Origin: a virus
IMG/VR virus record: IMGVR_UViG_3300032053_014309
Span: 1-24,557 of that record
Strand: one strand, 5' to 3'
DNA: 24,557 nucleotides
Below, piece by piece: positions 2,166 to 12,605 of this stretch (positions are counted from its first letter, which is position 1; every line of letters starts with the position of its first letter). Made by a program: the position numbers and the translations under genes. Below the pieces are notes generated by a model, which was not told the origin of the DNA, did no database searches, and worked only from the letters and a program-made list of their open reading frames with translations.

Positions 2166-2191
2166 AAATGCTCCTTTGAAAAAGCCCGCCT

Positions 2192-2223
2192 ACAAAATCG
2201 CTCTCGGCAGGCATTTACACCAA
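2192..2223 (-). promoter_or_regulatory. Variant of the repeated promoter module
   Basis: The minus strand reads TTGGTG (2218-2223), a 20-base spacer and TTTTGT (2192-2197) followed by AGGC and GGGCTT. It is clearly homologous to the module at 2593-2622, but the spacer is 2 bases longer and the -10 is degenerate. It may be weaker or inactive. Confidence 0.35.
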
Positions 2224-2227
2224 CGTT
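2208..2227 (-). repeat. 20 bp direct repeat, copy 1
   Basis: CAGGCATTTACACCAACGTT on the plus strand is repeated exactly at 2607-2626. Each copy sits directly at or after the stop codon of the gene upstream and contains the TTGGTG part of the promoter module. Confidence 0.85.
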
Positions 2228-2564
2228 ATTGCGCACTCGCCTGCTGAGTGCCGACCTTTACACAGTAAGTATCACGATCACCACGCAAACAAAAACCACC
2301 GCGAGGCTTCTGCCAATATTCGCAATCAAGGCACTTTGCAGGCTGCGCGAGTTGCTCGCCGTTGGCCGGTGGCTCCTCCGGTTGCCGGGCGTTTCCTCCG
2401 ATAGAAAGATGACGCCCGTACCACTCTTCGCGCCGCATACTGGCAGACTCAAAAGCTGCGAGACACGACAGAAGATACTCTGCCAAGATGAAGTCGGGTG
2501 TGTTACTGATGTTCTCCCGACTACAGCGGTTTATCGCGGCGCGAATTTCGTTTGCTAAAGGCAT
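2226..2564 (-). CDS. 112-residue Cys-rich protein
   Basis: The start is ATG at 2564 after AAAAGGAGCATT, and the stop is TAA at 2226. An N-terminal helical region of about 45 residues is followed by a Pro/Asn/Gln linker (EEPPANGEQLAQPA) and a Cys cluster CLDCEYW...FCLRGD...YC that can bind one zinc. The C-terminal tail is short and polar. The two-part plan of helical head, linker and metal knuckle is the same as in the 1615-1833 gene, and the linker DNA is similar. The function is unknown. Confidence 0.65.
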   Translation of the reverse strand: MPLANEIRAAINRCSRENISNTPDFILAEYLLSCLAAFESASMRREEWYGRHLSIGGNARQPEEPPANGEQLAQPAKCLDCEYWQKPRGGFCLRGDRDTYCVKVGTQQASAQ

Positions 2565-5920: not shown

Positions 5921-8854
5921 TCAAAACCCCGGCACGAGTGACGCCGCATCAACAAGATCCGTCTCCCAGATCAGCAAAGTCCCACTCTGAACCTTGTACC
6001 CGATCTGATTTGTCGCGCCGGACTTCGTCTGCTCCTTCGGTTTCCACACAATCCAAATGTACCGCGACTTCACCCCGCCCTCGTGCTCCGGCGCCGCAAG
6101 CATATCCTCATCGGAATGCTGCACGGAAATCTTGCGCCACACATAACGGCCGGTGTGATGCTTCCCATGAAGGATGACTTCCAGGAAGTCGCTCGTCCGC
6201 TTGACGAACTCGTACGTCCCGGAGTCAACAATCTCCATGTGGGCAACAAGATTCTTCGTCGGATTGCCGGGCTGGCCCACGGGTATATCGCCTTCAAACG
6301 TAAGCCACTTCGGATCGTGATACATCTTCTCCACGGTCCGCGTCTTCGTCCCGTCCTCCTTCAATTCGGTGAACAGCGTCCAGCCCCACATGCGCTGCGC
6401 GGTCGGTGAACCGAACCGAATATCGTAGTGCACCTTGTTACCCCACCAATGTCTCTGGATGACGAATCGATTGGCATACTTCCATTTCTTGGCAAGTGCC
6501 TCGATCGCAGCCGGGGTCATGTCAGGCGCAAGTTCGATCGCCGGACCATCCGGACCGCCCGGACAGACATTGAGATCCATGGACTCAGCCAGTTCCTCGC
6601 CCAGCGCCGCCTCCAGCGCGGCGCGCTCGTCATCAGTCAACTCCCGATCGACAAAGAGATCCACGTCATGAAGACTGCTGCCGCGCTCCACAAGGCCACC
6701 GGCAAGGCTCAAACGGTATGCATGCGGATACCGCTTCAGGCGCGGGACCACATCACCAAGCTGGATCACATTCGTGCTCATGCTGGCATGGTCCCGCGCC
6801 GCCGCTATGCGCTCGATCGTGCTCAAAGGATCGGGCTGCTTCTTGTCAGCCCGAACACTGATCACCTTCGGCGCGTACCAACTCACCTTATGACTCGCGG
6901 TGTCGTACGTGACGTGGTCCACCGACACCTCAATGATATCGCCGACGGCCGCCTTGATACTCGTTGCGTACGTTGTCCCGATAACCTCCCGCTCATCCGC
7001 CGTGCCGACTTCACACTCGTAAGTATAGGCGCCGCCCTTGTCGTCATGAACCGACTTCACCAAGGCGTCTATCACCGACTGACGCTTGAACTTGAAGTAC
7101 TTACCAGCGTCGGCACTCAGAAATTTCGCGTCAAGCGCCTTGACCATCGCGCCCTCACGCGTCTCCACCTGGACGATGGCGTTCACCACATCATTCATAC
7201 CAGCCTTGTGCGCAACCACCAGCGTCTTGACCGAATGAATCGTGCCGGTAAAACCAATATCATTGATGATCTTCAGACGGTCCGAGTATGGCTGTTCACG
7301 AAGATCCTTGCCATCGTACATCGGCACATCGAAAAGCTTGAACTTGAAATGGTAGTCCTCGTAAGGTCCCTTACCATTGATGTATGCCATCACGTCCGTA
7401 TGATCCATTCGCTGCCGACCACGGTACTTCACGATCTCACCGCTCAGGACCGTGCCTTTCGGCAGCTTCTCAGCCGAAGCAACCAGATTCGAGAACTTCT
7501 CAGCCTGATCGGCGCCCGGGGTCAGCACGGCAACCTCGCCCTTCTCGTTCACATGAATCTCCGCGTACACACCGTCGTACTTCGGCTGGACCGCATAGGA
7601 ACCCGCCGGGAGATTCTTGAACGCATCGAGCTGGAAGTATTCGTTGTTCGCCGCGCCCGACTTCGCGGGCTTCACGTTGCCGAGGAAGGCGCCGATTGAC
7701 ATTGTGGAAAGCGTGACAGGAAGAGTCGCGGGTATAACAACAGCCCCGTCAAGAGTCGCGACTGCGGACACAGGCGGGACAACTGCATCGACCACCGTCG
7801 CCGCTGCCGCGGATTCTGCCGGCGCGATGGGTGCGGGTGAGGCGGGTGCAGGTTCCGGCGAAGGGTTTAACACGACCGGGGCGGGTGTGTCGATGACCGG
7901 GGGCGGCGCCGCCGAATCCCCGGAAACCATGACAGCAGCAACCTCGGATGCAGACTGATCCGCCGAACTCAAAGTTTCGCCTGGTACTGCCCCGTCACCG
8001 GATCCCGTTCCCGCAGCGTTACCGAGATCAGGCGTCGCTTTAACAGGCGGCTCAGCGCCGGCGTCAGAAGATGCTCCGCTTCCAATCGCCGCTGGAGGTG
8101 GTTCAGTTCCGGAAGCGGGAGCCGTTCCATCACCTCCTGAATCTGTTCCAGCATCGCTTGACAACGTATCAACCGCAGGACTTCCGCTTGTTCCGGTGAC
8201 ATCCTTTACCCCCGCGATGAGTGTATCCAACGCAGCGATCGCGCCCTTCTCCTCGTCGGTATTGAGCGTCGCCTGGGTCTTGTCGTATGCACCACGGAAA
8301 ACAGGAAAACTCACTTCGGCAACCTTCGTAAAGTCGCCGGGAATCCAGTAACAAACCTGGCCGCTGTACTTCTCCAGCGGGCGGTGGCCGCACTCACCCA
8401 GAGGCATGCCGCAGATACTACACTTCGCGCTACCAAAAAAATATGCGATCGATCCCTCGGAATGGATCCCTGAATCGATTTGCTGAGCGCGCTGGTCACC
8501 CGAGGCATCCTTCAAGAAGAAGTACCGCAGCTTCAAGACCGCGCCCTTGTAACCGGGTTGGTTATCAAGAACGGACGCCTCAAAAACCTTCCCCCACGGC
8601 GCCGCATCCCATACATGCCCAACCATCATCGGCGCCTTCGGCAACAGAGCAGCAAGCGCTTCCAGCGCAGACCGCGGATGAATGCTGCCCTTGGAAGTCG
8701 GCTCTTCGCCCAGGATGATAAGGCCCCGGACATGAACGTCCTGGGCGGTCAAAGTACGCAGGGGACCGCACACCTTATTGATGATATCAATTGTCCCAAT
8801 GTCAACCGCCCCGGCATCGCAAGTTTGCAGTTTCCCGCTATGAAAATACCGCAT
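5921..8854 (-). CDS. Fusion: prohead protease-like, ATP-dependent ligase, NTase-like, LigD phosphoesterase
   Basis: ATG 8854 is chosen over one 102 bases upstream because GGAGG lies 7 bases before it. The 977-residue chain contains four recognisable parts. Residues 1-200 resemble phage prohead proteases: MMVGHVWD (H80), IHSEGSIAYFF (S135), the CSICG...CGH knuckle (145-157) and EVSFPVFRGAY. Residues 215-390 are a Gly/Ala/Pro/Ser low-complexity linker. Residues 405-670 are an ATP-dependent DNA ligase core with motif I KYDG (K425), a GEIVKY motif, EGAMVK (567-572), KYFKFK (585-590) and an OB-like tail. Residues 715-735 carry GG-x9-DVD, the metal motif of MNT-type nucleotidyltransferases. Residues 795-910 match the LigD 3'-phosphoesterase: FVIQRHWWGNKVHYDIRF (H802, H809, D811, R813) and FEGDIPVG. 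LigD domains act on broken DNA ends. It is the first gene of a leftward operon, far from the capsid gene. All key residues seem present, so the domains are probably active. Confidence 0.88.
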   Translation of the reverse strand: MRYFHSGKLQTCDAGAVDIGTIDIINKVCGPLRTLTAQDVHVRGLIILGEEPTSKGSIHPRSALEALAALLPKAPMMVGHVWDAAPWGKVFEASVLDNQPGYKGAVLKLRYFFLKDASGDQRAQQIDSGIHSEGSIAYFFGSAKCSICGMPLGECGHRPLEKYSGQVCYWIPGDFTKVAEVSFPVFRGAYDKTQATLNTDEEKGAIAALDTLIAGVKDVTGTSGSPAVDTLSSDAGTDSGGDGTAPASGTEPPPAAIGSGASSDAGAEPPVKATPDLGNAAGTGSGDGAVPGETLSSADQSASEVAAVMVSGDSAAPPPVIDTPAPVVLNPSPEPAPASPAPIAPAESAAAATVVDAVVPPVSAVATLDGAVVIPATLPVTLSTMSIGAFLGNVKPAKSGAANNEYFQLDAFKNLPAGSYAVQPKYDGVYAEIHVNEKGEVAVLTPGADQAEKFSNLVASAEKLPKGTVLSGEIVKYRGRQRMDHTDVMAYINGKGPYEDYHFKFKLFDVPMYDGKDLREQPYSDRLKIINDIGFTGTIHSVKTLVVAHKAGMNDVVNAIVQVETREGAMVKALDAKFLSADAGKYFKFKRQSVIDALVKSVHDDKGGAYTYECEVGTADEREVIGTTYATSIKAAVGDIIEVSVDHVTYDTASHKVSWYAPKVISVRADKKQPDPLSTIERIAAARDHASMSTNVIQLGDVVPRLKRYPHAYRLSLAGGLVERGSSLHDVDLFVDRELTDDERAALEAALGEELAESMDLNVCPGGPDGPAIELAPDMTPAAIEALAKKWKYANRFVIQRHWWGNKVHYDIRFGSPTAQRMWGWTLFTELKEDGTKTRTVEKMYHDPKWLTFEGDIPVGQPGNPTKNLVAHMEIVDSGTYEFVKRTSDFLEVILHGKHHTGRYVWRKISVQHSDEDMLAAPEHEGGVKSRYIWIVWKPKEQTKSGATNQIGYKVQSGTLLIWETDLVDAASLVPGF

Positions 8855-8962
8855 GTCAAGCCCTCCGTTAAGGTTGCAAAATTGACACTTGCGAGAGTCC
8901 CCGTCCCCTGACGCGCGTGACCACCACCCCCGGGGAACCAGGACGCACACGATCACATCATA

Positions 8963-9143: not shown

Positions 9144-9282
9144 CTGTTAGTGGCCGGAAGCCAGGGTGATCACGCCTGGACATTCACCAAGACCGAGCCG
9201 TCGTCCAGACTACGAGGAAGAGTCGCAGTCTCCTGCTCTTTCTCTTTCCACCTGTACGGCGGCTCGTCTTTCAGGAGACCCC

Positions 9283-10485
9283 ATGGGAAAGAAGCACGAC
9301 CTGCCAGCAATGCCGATGTATTGGGGGGATTGGTTCAAAGCCACGGACCTGCAAGCACTCGACCGAAATACGCGCTGCACATGGTTCGAGATGCTCGGAC
9401 GGATGTGGGAAAACAATGAACGCGGCTTCCTTTCGCTTGCCGGGAAGCCAATGTCGGATAACCAATTAGCCAACCTATTAGGGTATGGAACGGATATCCC
9501 AGCCGTACAGCAAGTGGTTAACCTACTTTTGACCACAGGAATTTGCAGTCGTCGCAATGACGGAGTTTTGTACTGTCGCCGAATGGTCCGAGAGGAAGAA
9601 ATTCGTAGCAGAAACGCTACTAATGGGGCGAAAGGTGGCAATCCTGCACTCATTTCAGGGAAATTCGTATCGGGTTCGGTTATCCCAAAAACAAACCGAT
9701 ACAGTGAAGATGAAATTGAAGAAAGTATTAATAGCAATACAATACCAAATCAAGCAATACAGACCGATACAAGCCATACGCGCGCGACCTCGACCGATGA
9801 ACCCCAGGACCCGGCAATTCTTGCCGAGCGCTTCGACACCATACGCAAAGCCTACCCCGGCGCAAAGCGTGGCAACGAGACGGAACTAAAGACCTTCCTG
9901 GCGCACGGAGACGCCTCTGAAACCCTCGATCGCCTTCTGCCCGCAATCCAAGCACAGAAGGCACACCGCAAGCGCCTGACGGCCGCGGGCGACTTCTGCC
10001 CGGCCTGGCCACACTTCGCAACCTGGCTGAACAACCGACAGTGGGAACTCGAATTCGAGAAGTACGGTCCGCAACCGTCGAAAGAAACAACAACGCCGGT
10101 CACGAAGGTGGCGCAAGAAGAGCGCCCGGCTTCACCCGAAGAGATCGCCGCACTCGTACAAGCTGGAATCCAAGAGCACAAGAAGACCGCCGGACCAAAA
10201 CCTCAAGACGCCGCAGCCGCGCCGGTACCGCCCCCGCAGCAGCCGGCAGTTGAAGACCAGAACCCGCAGCAGCCGGAAGTTGAAGACCAGATCGCCAAAC
10301 TTCTCAATCCCTACATGCCGGCCTTCAAGATCGCCAATCTCCGCAAGATGGTGAAAAACCTGTCCCCGATAATGATTCTTGACAAAATAGAACTAACCAA
10401 CGAAGAACAACGAACGGACCCCGGCTCATTCCTTTTTCAAGCAATCGTCTTCAACTACCAGTCAAAAAAAACCCATAAGACTTGA
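9283..10485 (+). CDS. Phage replication initiator-like protein
   Basis: ATG 9283 has AGGAG 5 bases upstream, and an in-frame ATG 117 bases earlier lacks one. The 400-residue product begins MGKKHDLPAMPMYWGDWFKA and continues with a helical region (RCTWFEMLGRMW, SDNQLANLLG). This resembles the winged-helix N-terminal domains of phage replisome organisers. A polar linker (about 130-175), a second helical domain with FCPAWPHFATWLNNRQW (about 245-261), a Pro/Gln linker with a tandem repeat, and a C-terminal helical domain (LLNPYMPAFKIANLRKM) follow. The product probably binds the origin and loads helicase, but no catalytic motif is present. The DNA from about 9430 to 9790 is visibly richer in A and T than the rest of the gene, which suggests mosaic origin of the linker. 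Confidence 0.6.
   Translation: MGKKHDLPAMPMYWGDWFKATDLQALDRNTRCTWFEMLGRMWENNERGFLSLAGKPMSDNQLANLLGYGTDIPAVQQVVNLLLTTGICSRRNDGVLYCRRMVREEEIRSRNATNGAKGGNPALISGKFVSGSVIPKTNRYSEDEIEESINSNTIPNQAIQTDTSHTRATSTDEPQDPAILAERFDTIRKAYPGAKRGNETELKTFLAHGDASETLDRLLPAIQAQKAHRKRLTAAGDFCPAWPHFATWLNNRQWELEFEKYGPQPSKETTTPVTKVAQEERPASPEEIAALVQAGIQEHKKTAGPKPQDAAAAPVPPPQQPAVEDQNPQQPEVEDQIAKLLNPYMPAFKIANLRKMVKNLSPIMILDKIELTNEEQRTDPGSFLFQAIVFNYQSKKTHKT
10231..10290 (+). repeat. 30 bp tandem duplication inside the initiator gene
   Basis: Two adjacent 30-base units (10231-10260 and 10261-10290) differ at 3 positions and encode PQQPAVEDQN followed by PQQPEVEDQI. They lengthen the flexible linker before the C-terminal domain. 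Confidence 0.85.
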
Positions 10486-10510
10486 CAATTCAAACGAAGG
10501 GGTGTAGATT
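10482..10510 (+). promoter_or_regulatory. Strong sigma-70-type promoter for the head genes
   Basis: TTGACA (10482-10487), a 17-base spacer and TAGATT (10505-10510) form a near-consensus promoter right after the initiator stop. The expected start of transcription is near 10517, the A of the next ATG. Confidence 0.75.
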
Positions 10511-10516
10511 TAAGGC

Positions 10517-10909
10517 ATGGAACAGTTGACGACAGCACGGAACCTTTTAACCCGTCTCAGTTCCAAGCCTGACTCGATTGACGTTCATGAATGCATCACG
10601 GTACTGTCCACCCTGATCGATGCGTTGTCCAGCGGCCTCCAACGGACCGACAATGCATCAGCGTCAGAAGTCAGTCCGATAATGCAGGACATGAAGAACC
10701 GAATCAAGGGCAAAATCATGATGTCGATGCACGGCATCGAGAAGGCAATGGCGCTCGACCAGCTCCAACACACCAGCGACCAAACCAAGTTGATCGAGAT
10801 GCAGGCGCAGATCGATGAAACCTTCGCTCGACATTTTCAGGAACCGACAAAGGTGACGGCATCCGGGCTATCTTTCGTCAACGTCAGCAACTTCAAAACA
10901 GGAGCATGA
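10517..10909 (+). CDS. 130-residue helical head-region protein
   Basis: The product is almost all helical and rich in Met, Gln and Asp (NRIKGKIMMSMHGIEKAMAL, LIEMQAQIDETFARHF). Its length, helical content and position upstream of the capsid genes would fit a small scaffold or assembly protein, but no family is recognised. The ATG coincides with the predicted transcription start of the promoter at 10482-10510, and the nearest purine block (AAGG) is only one base away. The message may therefore be leaderless. The stop codon lies inside the ribosome-binding region of the next gene. Confidence 0.7.
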   Translation: MEQLTTARNLLTRLSSKPDSIDVHECITVLSTLIDALSSGLQRTDNASASEVSPIMQDMKNRIKGKIMMSMHGIEKAMALDQLQHTSDQTKLIEMQAQIDETFARHFQEPTKVTASGLSFVNVSNFKTGA

Positions 10910-10913
10910 CCCT

Positions 10914-11375
10914 ATGAACCTCGCTCGTATCGTCAACAACATCGGCATCGGCAGCGTCGAACTCACGCTGATCAACCGGTCCACAACCTCAACCATGGGC
11001 GCCGGTACCGTCAAGGCGCTCCGTGGCTTCACCCAGGCAAACATTGACGCCAACCGCGTCGCGTGCAGCGTGCGCGGAAACAACCTCGGCGGTCTCGCCG
11101 GCACGACCGGCGGACTCTTCGGCGCCGCTCTCGCGGTAAGTGAGCATTGCTGGGGCACGAAAGCAACGCCCCGTGAGATCGTGGTTCAGGTAAGCGGAGT
11201 CGCGCAATTGGGCGCGACAACGACCCGCCCGGTCGCCAACAATGCCGACAGCGGTGACATCGTCCAGGTAGGCGGCCTTATCTGTGATGGCGGCCATACA
11301 ACCGCAAAACTGCTCAACACGCGCGGCACCGTGATCAACGTCTGGGACACCGAACGCGTTGACGTGCTGTTCTGA
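10914..11375 (+). CDS. Small head protein, possible capsid decoration protein
   Basis: The 153-residue product starts at ATG 10914 after AGGAG with a 9-base spacer. It is rich in Gly, Ala, Thr and Val with a predicted beta fold (TREIVVQ-like strands, DSGDIVQVGGLICDGG, GTVINVWDTERVDVLF). Its place one gene before the major capsid protein and its size match phage capsid cement or decoration proteins. I do not recognise a specific family. The CRISPR-like repeat begins 6 bases after its stop. Confidence 0.7.
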   Translation: MNLARIVNNIGIGSVELTLINRSTTSTMGAGTVKALRGFTQANIDANRVACSVRGNNLGGLAGTTGGLFGAALAVSEHCWGTKATPREIVVQVSGVAQLGATTTRPVANNADSGDIVQVGGLICDGGHTTAKLLNTRGTVINVWDTERVDVLF

Positions 11376-11380
11376 ACACA

Positions 11381-11412
11381 TCGCGCCCTGCGTGGGGCGC
11401 GTGGATTGAAAC
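11381..11412 (+). CRISPR. Solitary type I-C-like CRISPR repeat
   Basis: A 32-base unit has a 7 bp stem (CGCGCCC 11382-11388, GGGCGCG 11395-11401) with a 6-base loop and ends in GTGGATTGAAAC (11401-11412). That length, hairpin position and 3' tail are those of type I-C repeats, which Cas5d cuts at the stem base. No second repeat and no cas gene are visible. It lies between two capsid genes on the transcribed strand. Solitary repeat units in phages have been described as RNA-based anti-CRISPRs. Chance hairpin formation is an alternative, since two other capsid-gene gaps also hold GC-rich hairpins, but those lack the tail. Confidence 0.75.
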
Positions 11413-11457
11413 GAAACGACAAAAGAACACTTTCCACCCACAAGCAGGAGCAACACC

Positions 11458-12570
11458 ATGGAATTTCTTCAGAAAGCACAGGAACTCAAGGACACAATCC
11501 TTGCGTACAACTCGCACAACAAGGCGTTGGAACTCTTCGCCTCGTGCGACCAGAAGCACCAGACGCTCAGCCAGTATCTGGAGTCACTCGACCCGACGCC
11601 CATCAACGACAAGGGCGAGAAGGCATGCCCGCTCGACGCCTTCGAGCGTCACCTCATGGTGCTCGGGCTGGAACTCAGCGGAACCAACGCGGCATCGATT
11701 GAAAAACTGATGTCAACCGCCGTCTACATGGTCCCCGAACTCATCAAGCGTGAGATCGAGGCCGGTATGAAGGCAAGCCGATCGAACCCGGACGGCCTTG
11801 TCGCATCACAAGAAAGCGTTGCCGGTCTAACGTTCCACCCGCTTTACATCCCGAACCTCAACCTCGCATCGGTCGCGACCCGCAATACCAAGTCTCTCGG
11901 CCGGCGCGCGGCAAGCGGCAAGGGCGGGGATTATCCCGTCACCCGCATCGAGCACCGCGAGAAAGACATCCCGATCATGGACTACGGCCGTGAGATTCAG
12001 GTGGCCTACTCCGTGGTGAAATCCAAGCCCTGGACCGTGTTCAAGATCTTCCTGAACCTGATCGGCGCGCAGATGGCGGCCGACGAGCTGTATGACATCT
12101 ACCAGCTCGGCCACGTCGGAGACGGTACCGTCGGCGCATCGCCCGACACCTTCGCCGGTACCGCGGGCACCCTGCAGTACACCGACCTCATTCGCAACTA
12201 CACCAGCTACTCCGCGCCGTTCAAGATGGGCGCGATCCTGGCTCCGCAGCGGTCCTATGAAGGTATCCTCACGATGGCGCAGTTCCAGGACCCGCTCAGC
12301 GGTTGGGAGTTCCAAAAAAACGGTACGCCGGTAACGCCAATGGGCGCAGTTCTCTACCAGGTCGAAACCGTACCCGCGGGCGCACCGACAGGCACCGAAA
12401 TCGTAACCCTGGATCCGAACTACGCCATCGCGCTGGCGTCGGATGATCAGGGGATCTTCATCGAAACCGAGAAGATCATCTCCAGGCAGTTCGAAAAGGC
12501 TGTCGTAAGCAACAAGAAGGTGTACTCGGTCATTGCCGATGGTGCACTGAAGCAAATTCTCTGGACGTAG
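11458..12570 (+). CDS. Major capsid protein, HK97-fold type
   Basis: The 370-residue product starts after AGGAG with an 8-base spacer. Residues 1-90 are a helical N-terminal region like a delta or scaffold domain. The stretch STAVYMVPELIKREIEAGMK is the usual entry to an HK97-fold body, followed by the E-loop-like RAASGKGGDYPVTRIEHREK and a long helix (WTVFKIFLNLIGAQMAADEL). The C-terminal part (IFIETEKIISRQFEKAVV, KVYSVIADGALKQI) matches the P-domain end of such proteins. Position between a decoration-like gene and other head proteins agrees. Whether the N-terminal domain is removed by the protease domain encoded at 5921-8854 cannot be seen. Family call is from motif memory. Confidence 0.82.
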   Translation: MEFLQKAQELKDTILAYNSHNKALELFASCDQKHQTLSQYLESLDPTPINDKGEKACPLDAFERHLMVLGLELSGTNAASIEKLMSTAVYMVPELIKREIEAGMKASRSNPDGLVASQESVAGLTFHPLYIPNLNLASVATRNTKSLGRRAASGKGGDYPVTRIEHREKDIPIMDYGREIQVAYSVVKSKPWTVFKIFLNLIGAQMAADELYDIYQLGHVGDGTVGASPDTFAGTAGTLQYTDLIRNYTSYSAPFKMGAILAPQRSYEGILTMAQFQDPLSGWEFQKNGTPVTPMGAVLYQVETVPAGAPTGTEIVTLDPNYAIALASDDQGIFIETEKIISRQFEKAVVSNKKVYSVIADGALKQILWT

Positions 12571-12583
12571 TCAATCGCGACAC

Positions 12584-12605
12584 GGGGCCCGGCCAACCGG
12601 GCCCC
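12584..12605 (+). terminator. GC-rich hairpin after the capsid gene
   Basis: GGGGCCCGG, loop CCAA and CCGGGCCCC give a perfect 9 bp stem, 13 bases past the capsid stop. It is followed by TCTCTTTC, a pyrimidine-rich but imperfect U-tract. It may partially terminate or protect the very abundant capsid message. Confidence 0.6.

Follow-up and report, generated by a model that had tools for sequence, protein, structure and literature searches.

A solitary type I-C CRISPR repeat unit ahead of a phage capsid gene, a candidate RNA anti-CRISPR

Why would a phage carry a single CRISPR repeat immediately ahead of its capsid gene? The question is raised by a short stretch of a 24,557-base IMG/VR virus record (hereafter the window, that is, the whole stretch of DNA analysed), which is probably a fragment. 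RNA decoys that imitate CRISPR repeats were first described in 2023, and the first-pass annotation of the window had proposed a candidate of this kind, a solitary type I-C repeat acting as an RNA anti-CRISPR. Judging by the sequence and by analogy with a known system, we consider the unit likely to be an RNA decoy (a Racr candidate) that the phage carries against type I-C CRISPR-Cas. Solitary repeats and RNA anti-CRISPRs are already known as kinds, and the unit in the window is a new candidate.

The unit, its hairpin and its neighbors

The 32-base stretch at 11381-11412 (+), TCGCGCCCTGCGTGGGGCGCGTGGATTGAAAC, was claimed to have the size, the 7-bp hairpin and the tail of type I-C repeats, and both the sequence and the RNA fold agree with this description. 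However, the unit is better delimited as 33 nt, ATCGCGCCCTGCGTGGGGCGCGTGGATTGAAAC (11380-11412, +), because the closest real repeats have 33 nt and start with GTCGC; the first base of the unit is A, compared to G in these repeats. The unit and its surroundings comprise the following features.

10482-10510 (+): sigma-70-like promoter TTGACA-17-TAGATT, 10/12 consensus matches (consensus scan)
10517-10909 (+): 130-aa ORF, no recognised family
10914-11375 (+): 153-aa ORF, no recognised family, no match to phages by tblastn
11380-11412 (+): solitary type I-C CRISPR repeat unit, candidate Racr (31/33 identity to the L047/L052 array repeat, 56.0 bits, shuffle control)
11382-11401 (+): hairpin, stem CGCGCCC(U)/(G)GGGCGCG, loop GCGU (RNA fold)
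11458-12570 (+): major head (capsid) protein, 370 aa (PHROG 3922, E 5.9e-39)
12584-12605 (+): terminator-like hairpin with 9 G-C pairs, then a T-rich tail (consensus scan)

The predicted hairpin consists of seven Watson-Crick pairs and one U-G pair (-17.7 kcal/mol, z -2.1) and also forms when folded within a 221-nt context, while the tail of the unit is mostly single-stranded in the predicted fold. The unit is intergenic, lying between the stop at 11375 and the capsid ATG at 11458 on the same strand as both neighbors, and a TGA within it closes the capsid frame upstream, so that the capsid ORF does not include the unit. The gaps, given earlier as 6 and 46 bases, needed a slight correction: the stop of the 153-aa ORF ends 5 bases before 11381, that is, 4 nt from the 33-nt unit, and 45 bases lead from 11412 to the ATG. 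An antisense ORF crosses the unit at 11335-11559 (-) and contains SIHAPHAGRD, which is also found antisense to the arrays in L047 and L013 (described below). We judged the antisense ORFs overlapping the unit, one of them with this peptide, to be spurious; annotation pipelines masking ORFs of the SIHAPHAGRD type could conceal type I-C solitary repeats.

Between the promoter-like and terminator-like sequences lie the 130-aa and 153-aa ORFs, then the unit and the capsid gene. The placement of the unit between capsid genes is borne out on the downstream side, where the major head protein is recognised (about 30% identical to many phage capsids); the 153-aa ORF on the upstream side has no recognised family (its predicted structure, with pLDDT 32, is unusable), and thus a capsid function can be assigned to one neighbor only. 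No known acr gene was recognised next to the unit.

Type I-C identity and solitude

To characterise the unit as a repeat, we scanned GTDB genomes with a pattern made of its stem, a loop of any six bases and its tail, and found at least 120 stretches, most of them arrays. Among the matches listed, the nearest array repeats have two differences from the unit in 33 bases, namely GTCGCGCCCCGCGTGGGGCGCGTGGATTGAAAC, the array repeat of a Haliea MAG (L047, L052) and of a viral contig (L013), and GTCGCGCCCTGCATGGGGCGCGTGGATTGAAAC from Selenomonas noxia (L127). By blastn-short, the unit is 96.9% identical to the L047/L052 and L127 repeats over 32 of 33 bases (97% coverage, 56.0 bits). The Haliea array L047 lies after, and adjoins, the genes cas3 (partial), cas5c, cas8c, cas7c, cas4, and cas1c (NCBIfam models). 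Its repeat shares 31/33 bases with the unit, with the same stem and tail, but stands in an array beside cas genes, whereas the unit stands alone in a phage with no recognised cas genes. One of the differences from the Haliea repeat, C to T at 11389, converts a stem C-G pair into U-G, and hence the stem pairing is kept. The type I-C likeness is thus borne out, since over 32 bases the unit and a genuine I-C array repeat disagree at a single position; the comparison with I-C repeats had been set as a test beforehand, and the match extends beyond the tail, so that a tail-only match is excluded. The exact 32-mer is absent from the GTDB genomes searched and from IMG/VR, an Rfam search yielded no match, and the 33-mer gave weak or array-like matches only among GenBank phages and plasmids.

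A G+C-rich stem-loop within an intergenic gap could in principle be a hairpin or a terminator that resembles a repeat by chance. Yet the closest array repeat, with up to three mismatches allowed, finds one place in the window, the unit itself, and 0/100 shuffles match; 36 stretches of IMG/VR contain the stem and tail pattern, while none contains its letter-reversed control. Given these two controls, chance resemblance is rejected for practical purposes. The terminator reading is rejected as well, there being no T-run after the hairpin of the unit, which is absent from the list of the terminator scan. We regard this explanation as hardly credible.

The criteria of SRUFinder for solitary repeat units (SRUs) are at least 90% identity and at least 90% coverage to a known repeat, a blastn-short bit score of at least 41.1, an intergenic position, the absence of any second repeat, full or partial, within 100 bp, and no association with cas genes (PMC10651486). 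The unit passes the sequence filters with 96.9% identity, 97% coverage, and 56.0 bits, above the cutoff of 41.1. Its 100-bp flanks contain no further repeat (the best match is 16/33, 48%), its exact tail has a single occurrence in the window, and the main ORFs of the window yielded no cas family; hence, the earlier statement that neither an array nor a cas gene is present is upheld. On these sequence grounds we class the unit as a strong SRU, and as a candidate Racr.

The same observations bear on the possibility that the unit is an acquisition site, or a mini-array of one repeat, beside which the host Cas1-Cas2 inserts spacers against competing phages. Viral mini-CRISPR arrays do exist and, as in the window, place a host-like repeat in a viral genome (PMC11656645). 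However, they contain a spacer enclosed by two or more repeats, compared to the one repeat here; moreover, the 100-bp flanks lack a second or partial repeat, and upstream of the unit lies coding sequence rather than a leader-like region. This makes an acquisition site very improbable.

Solitary type I-C units in other viruses, relatives and host

Searches including IMG/VR3 have produced a list of 2,103 viral SRUs, of which one type I-C example was tested (PMC10651486); the record of the window may be among them. With a wider pattern, viral sequences yielded at least 69 distinct solitary I-C units, the window included. The sixth base and its partner pair in all 69 units listed (GC in 32, CG in 18, TA in nine, AT in six, and TG in four). 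As arrays covary likewise, this pairing confirms the identity of the units rather than proving selection in phages. This set of viral I-C units is a source of further candidates. Two contigs differ from both arrays and single solitary units, IMGVR_UViG_3300031673_000079 (L004/L006) and the contig of L016, each carrying several identical I-C repeats hundreds to thousands of bases apart.

Where both neighbors have the same direction, the unit is in sense with them in 29 of 36 cases among the units listed (p 3e-4, an approximate value, as it relies on simple ORF calling). At least seven phages, the window included, have the unit beside head or packaging genes, and in the at least six others it is always in sense with the adjoining head or packaging gene. 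Therefore, the head-operon location of the unit in the window is not unique.

L253: unit 46 nt after terminase, in sense
L252, also near copy L291: unit 247 nt after terminase, in sense
L288: unit 172 nt before portal, in sense
L028: unit 72 nt after portal, in sense
L283: unit 98 nt before head maturation protease, in sense
L275: unit 22 nt before head maturation protease, in sense

The sense bias of the listed units is relevant to the view that the unit is a captured relic, a single repeat obtained from a host I-C array via recombination or aberrant spacer-integration chemistry and now drifting without function. Two substitutions relative to the nearest array repeat and a position in an operon expected to be late agree with drift, but the stem substitution preserves pairing, the tail is intact, and the unit fits a short intergenic gap in sense, the placement that viral solitary units favor as a class. 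We thus consider a relic rather unlikely.

Relatives were sought as well. No DNA similarity of the 9-15 kb region of the window to GenBank phages was detected, and we found neither close relatives by capsid nor relatives keeping the genes that flank the unit. Among the distant capsid relatives (about 30% identity; 80 kept of 391), the GGATTGAAAC tail is present in none of the fetched stretches. Another phage, L335, has portal and terminase proteins 42% and 39% identical, respectively, to those of the window, and the 19 kb fetched from it lack an I-C tail; it is uninformative about conservation of the unit, as it has no detectable homologue of the window capsid, probably due to modular exchange of head genes. 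In the search for a host by spacer matching, 1,864 spacers from the fetched I-C-like arrays gave no credible match to the window, the best being 15-18 nt. A host with the matching CRISPR subtype has been observed in 83% of cases, which makes it typical but not required (PMC10651486).

Proposed decoy action and the capsid message

The closest precedent is RacrIC1 from a Bifidobacterium pseudocatenulatum prophage, which, like the unit, is a solitary I-C repeat a few bases past an upstream stop (PMC10651486). It shares a bicistronic RNA with acrIC5, from which it is 11 nt downstream, and has been shown to inhibit type I-C (PMC10651486). Co-transcription with the upstream gene is thus demonstrated for RacrIC1 and predicted for the unit; RacrIC1 follows acrIC5 and its inhibition is proven, whereas the unit, a candidate, follows the gene of the 153-aa protein and precedes the capsid gene. 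RacrIF1 (type I-F, Thiocystis prophage) is likewise an intergenic repeat mimic in a phage, but it targets Cas6f, has its own promoter, and yields a product without a 5' handle (PMC10651486), while type I-C cleavage would give the downstream RNA a 5' handle.

In type I-C systems, Cas5c/d replaces Cas6 as the repeat-cutting enzyme, and its cut leaves a 5' handle of 11 nt (PMC5965380), and the minimal recognised hairpin has been reported to consist of a 3-bp stem and a tetraloop (PMC7064716). By analogy, the unit would be transcribed from the sense strand within a message carrying the two upstream genes, the SRU and the capsid gene, and its RNA would adopt the hairpin of an I-C repeat, exact 3' tail included, and therefore could be bound by Cas5c/d of a type I-C host. 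Cas5c/d would probably cut at the base of the stem, 11401|11402, so that the hairpin would stay on the upstream cleavage product, and the downstream product would carry the handle UGGAUUGAAAC and the capsid leader, without a second repeat.

11402-11412 (+): predicted 11-nt crRNA-like 5' handle, UGGAUUGAAAC, by analogy with the 11-nt handle of I-C crRNA (PMC5965380) and from the sequence
11413-11446 (+): would-be guide segment, formed by the capsid gene leader

Cas5c/d and possibly Cas7c and Cas8c may then be occupied by decoy RNAs rather than by genuine crRNAs, and such loading would lower immunity. The PAM of type I-C is TTC. Phage DNA would be spared self-targeting because its matching site is flanked by the repeat triplet AAC instead of this PAM, as in an ordinary array; moreover, a TTC-preceded match to the first 6-8 bases of the guide segment 11413-11446 was found nowhere in the window.

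Thus, the sequence, the structure, the sense orientation with both flanking genes, the pairing kept by the U-G wobble, the context, and the RacrIC1 precedent lend good support to the proposal of a solitary I-C repeat that is a candidate RNA anti-CRISPR. A weak point for an anti-CRISPR, one that the first-pass annotation had not raised, is timing, since the head operon is expected to be expressed late and inhibitors help most when early.

It had also been suggested that Cas5d cutting could split the capsid message. The split follows physically if Cas5d acts; a regulatory role or selection for it did not gain support. As an explanation in its own right, Cas5c/d-dependent control would mean that a cut 56 nt before the capsid start alters stability or translation of the capsid mRNA, as a sensor or as a side effect of immunity. 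The coding-strand position 45 nt before the capsid ATG, the 11-nt handle left by the Cas5 cut of type I-C repeats (PMC5965380), and units adjoining head genes in other phages are consistent with such control. On the other hand, a capsid message cut or coated by Cas7 could cost the phage, and decoy action alone explains the operon-borne RacrIC1; we find this explanation improbable. Of about the same low plausibility, perhaps a shade higher, is a dual-purpose design, where Cas5c/d would cut the head message, the capsid leader would become the guide of an inert PAM-less Cascade, and capsid expression would be altered, so that the message might serve as decoy and sensor at once; the units that adjoin head genes in six or more further phages would follow the same design.

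If the decoy reading is true, a type I-C RNA anti-CRISPR would reside inside a structural operon, the decoy and an essential message being one molecule. Late action of RNA decoys would then become testable, as would the question of whether a phage tolerates or uses a cut by the Cas endonuclease.

Several other features of the window were observed. Upstream of the promoter-like sequence, the ORF at 9166-10485 contains two near-identical 29-base direct repeats (10233-10291, starts 30 bases apart), encoding PQQPAVEDQN/PQQPEVEDQ. A long ORF at 5921-8956 (-), about 980-1011 aa, combines ATP-dependent DNA ligase and LigD-type 3'-phosphoesterase domains with an N-terminal phage domain of unknown function. 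An intergenic motif close to GTTGGTGTAAATGCCTGGCCGACCATATTATAGGC precedes small genes of the minus strand at 508-544, 881-917, 2589-2625, and approximately 2190-2230 (- strand), the last copy having been spotted by eye; three copies compare with 0.05 expected, and the motif resembles a family of phage early promoters (TTGGTG, 18 nt, TATTAT).
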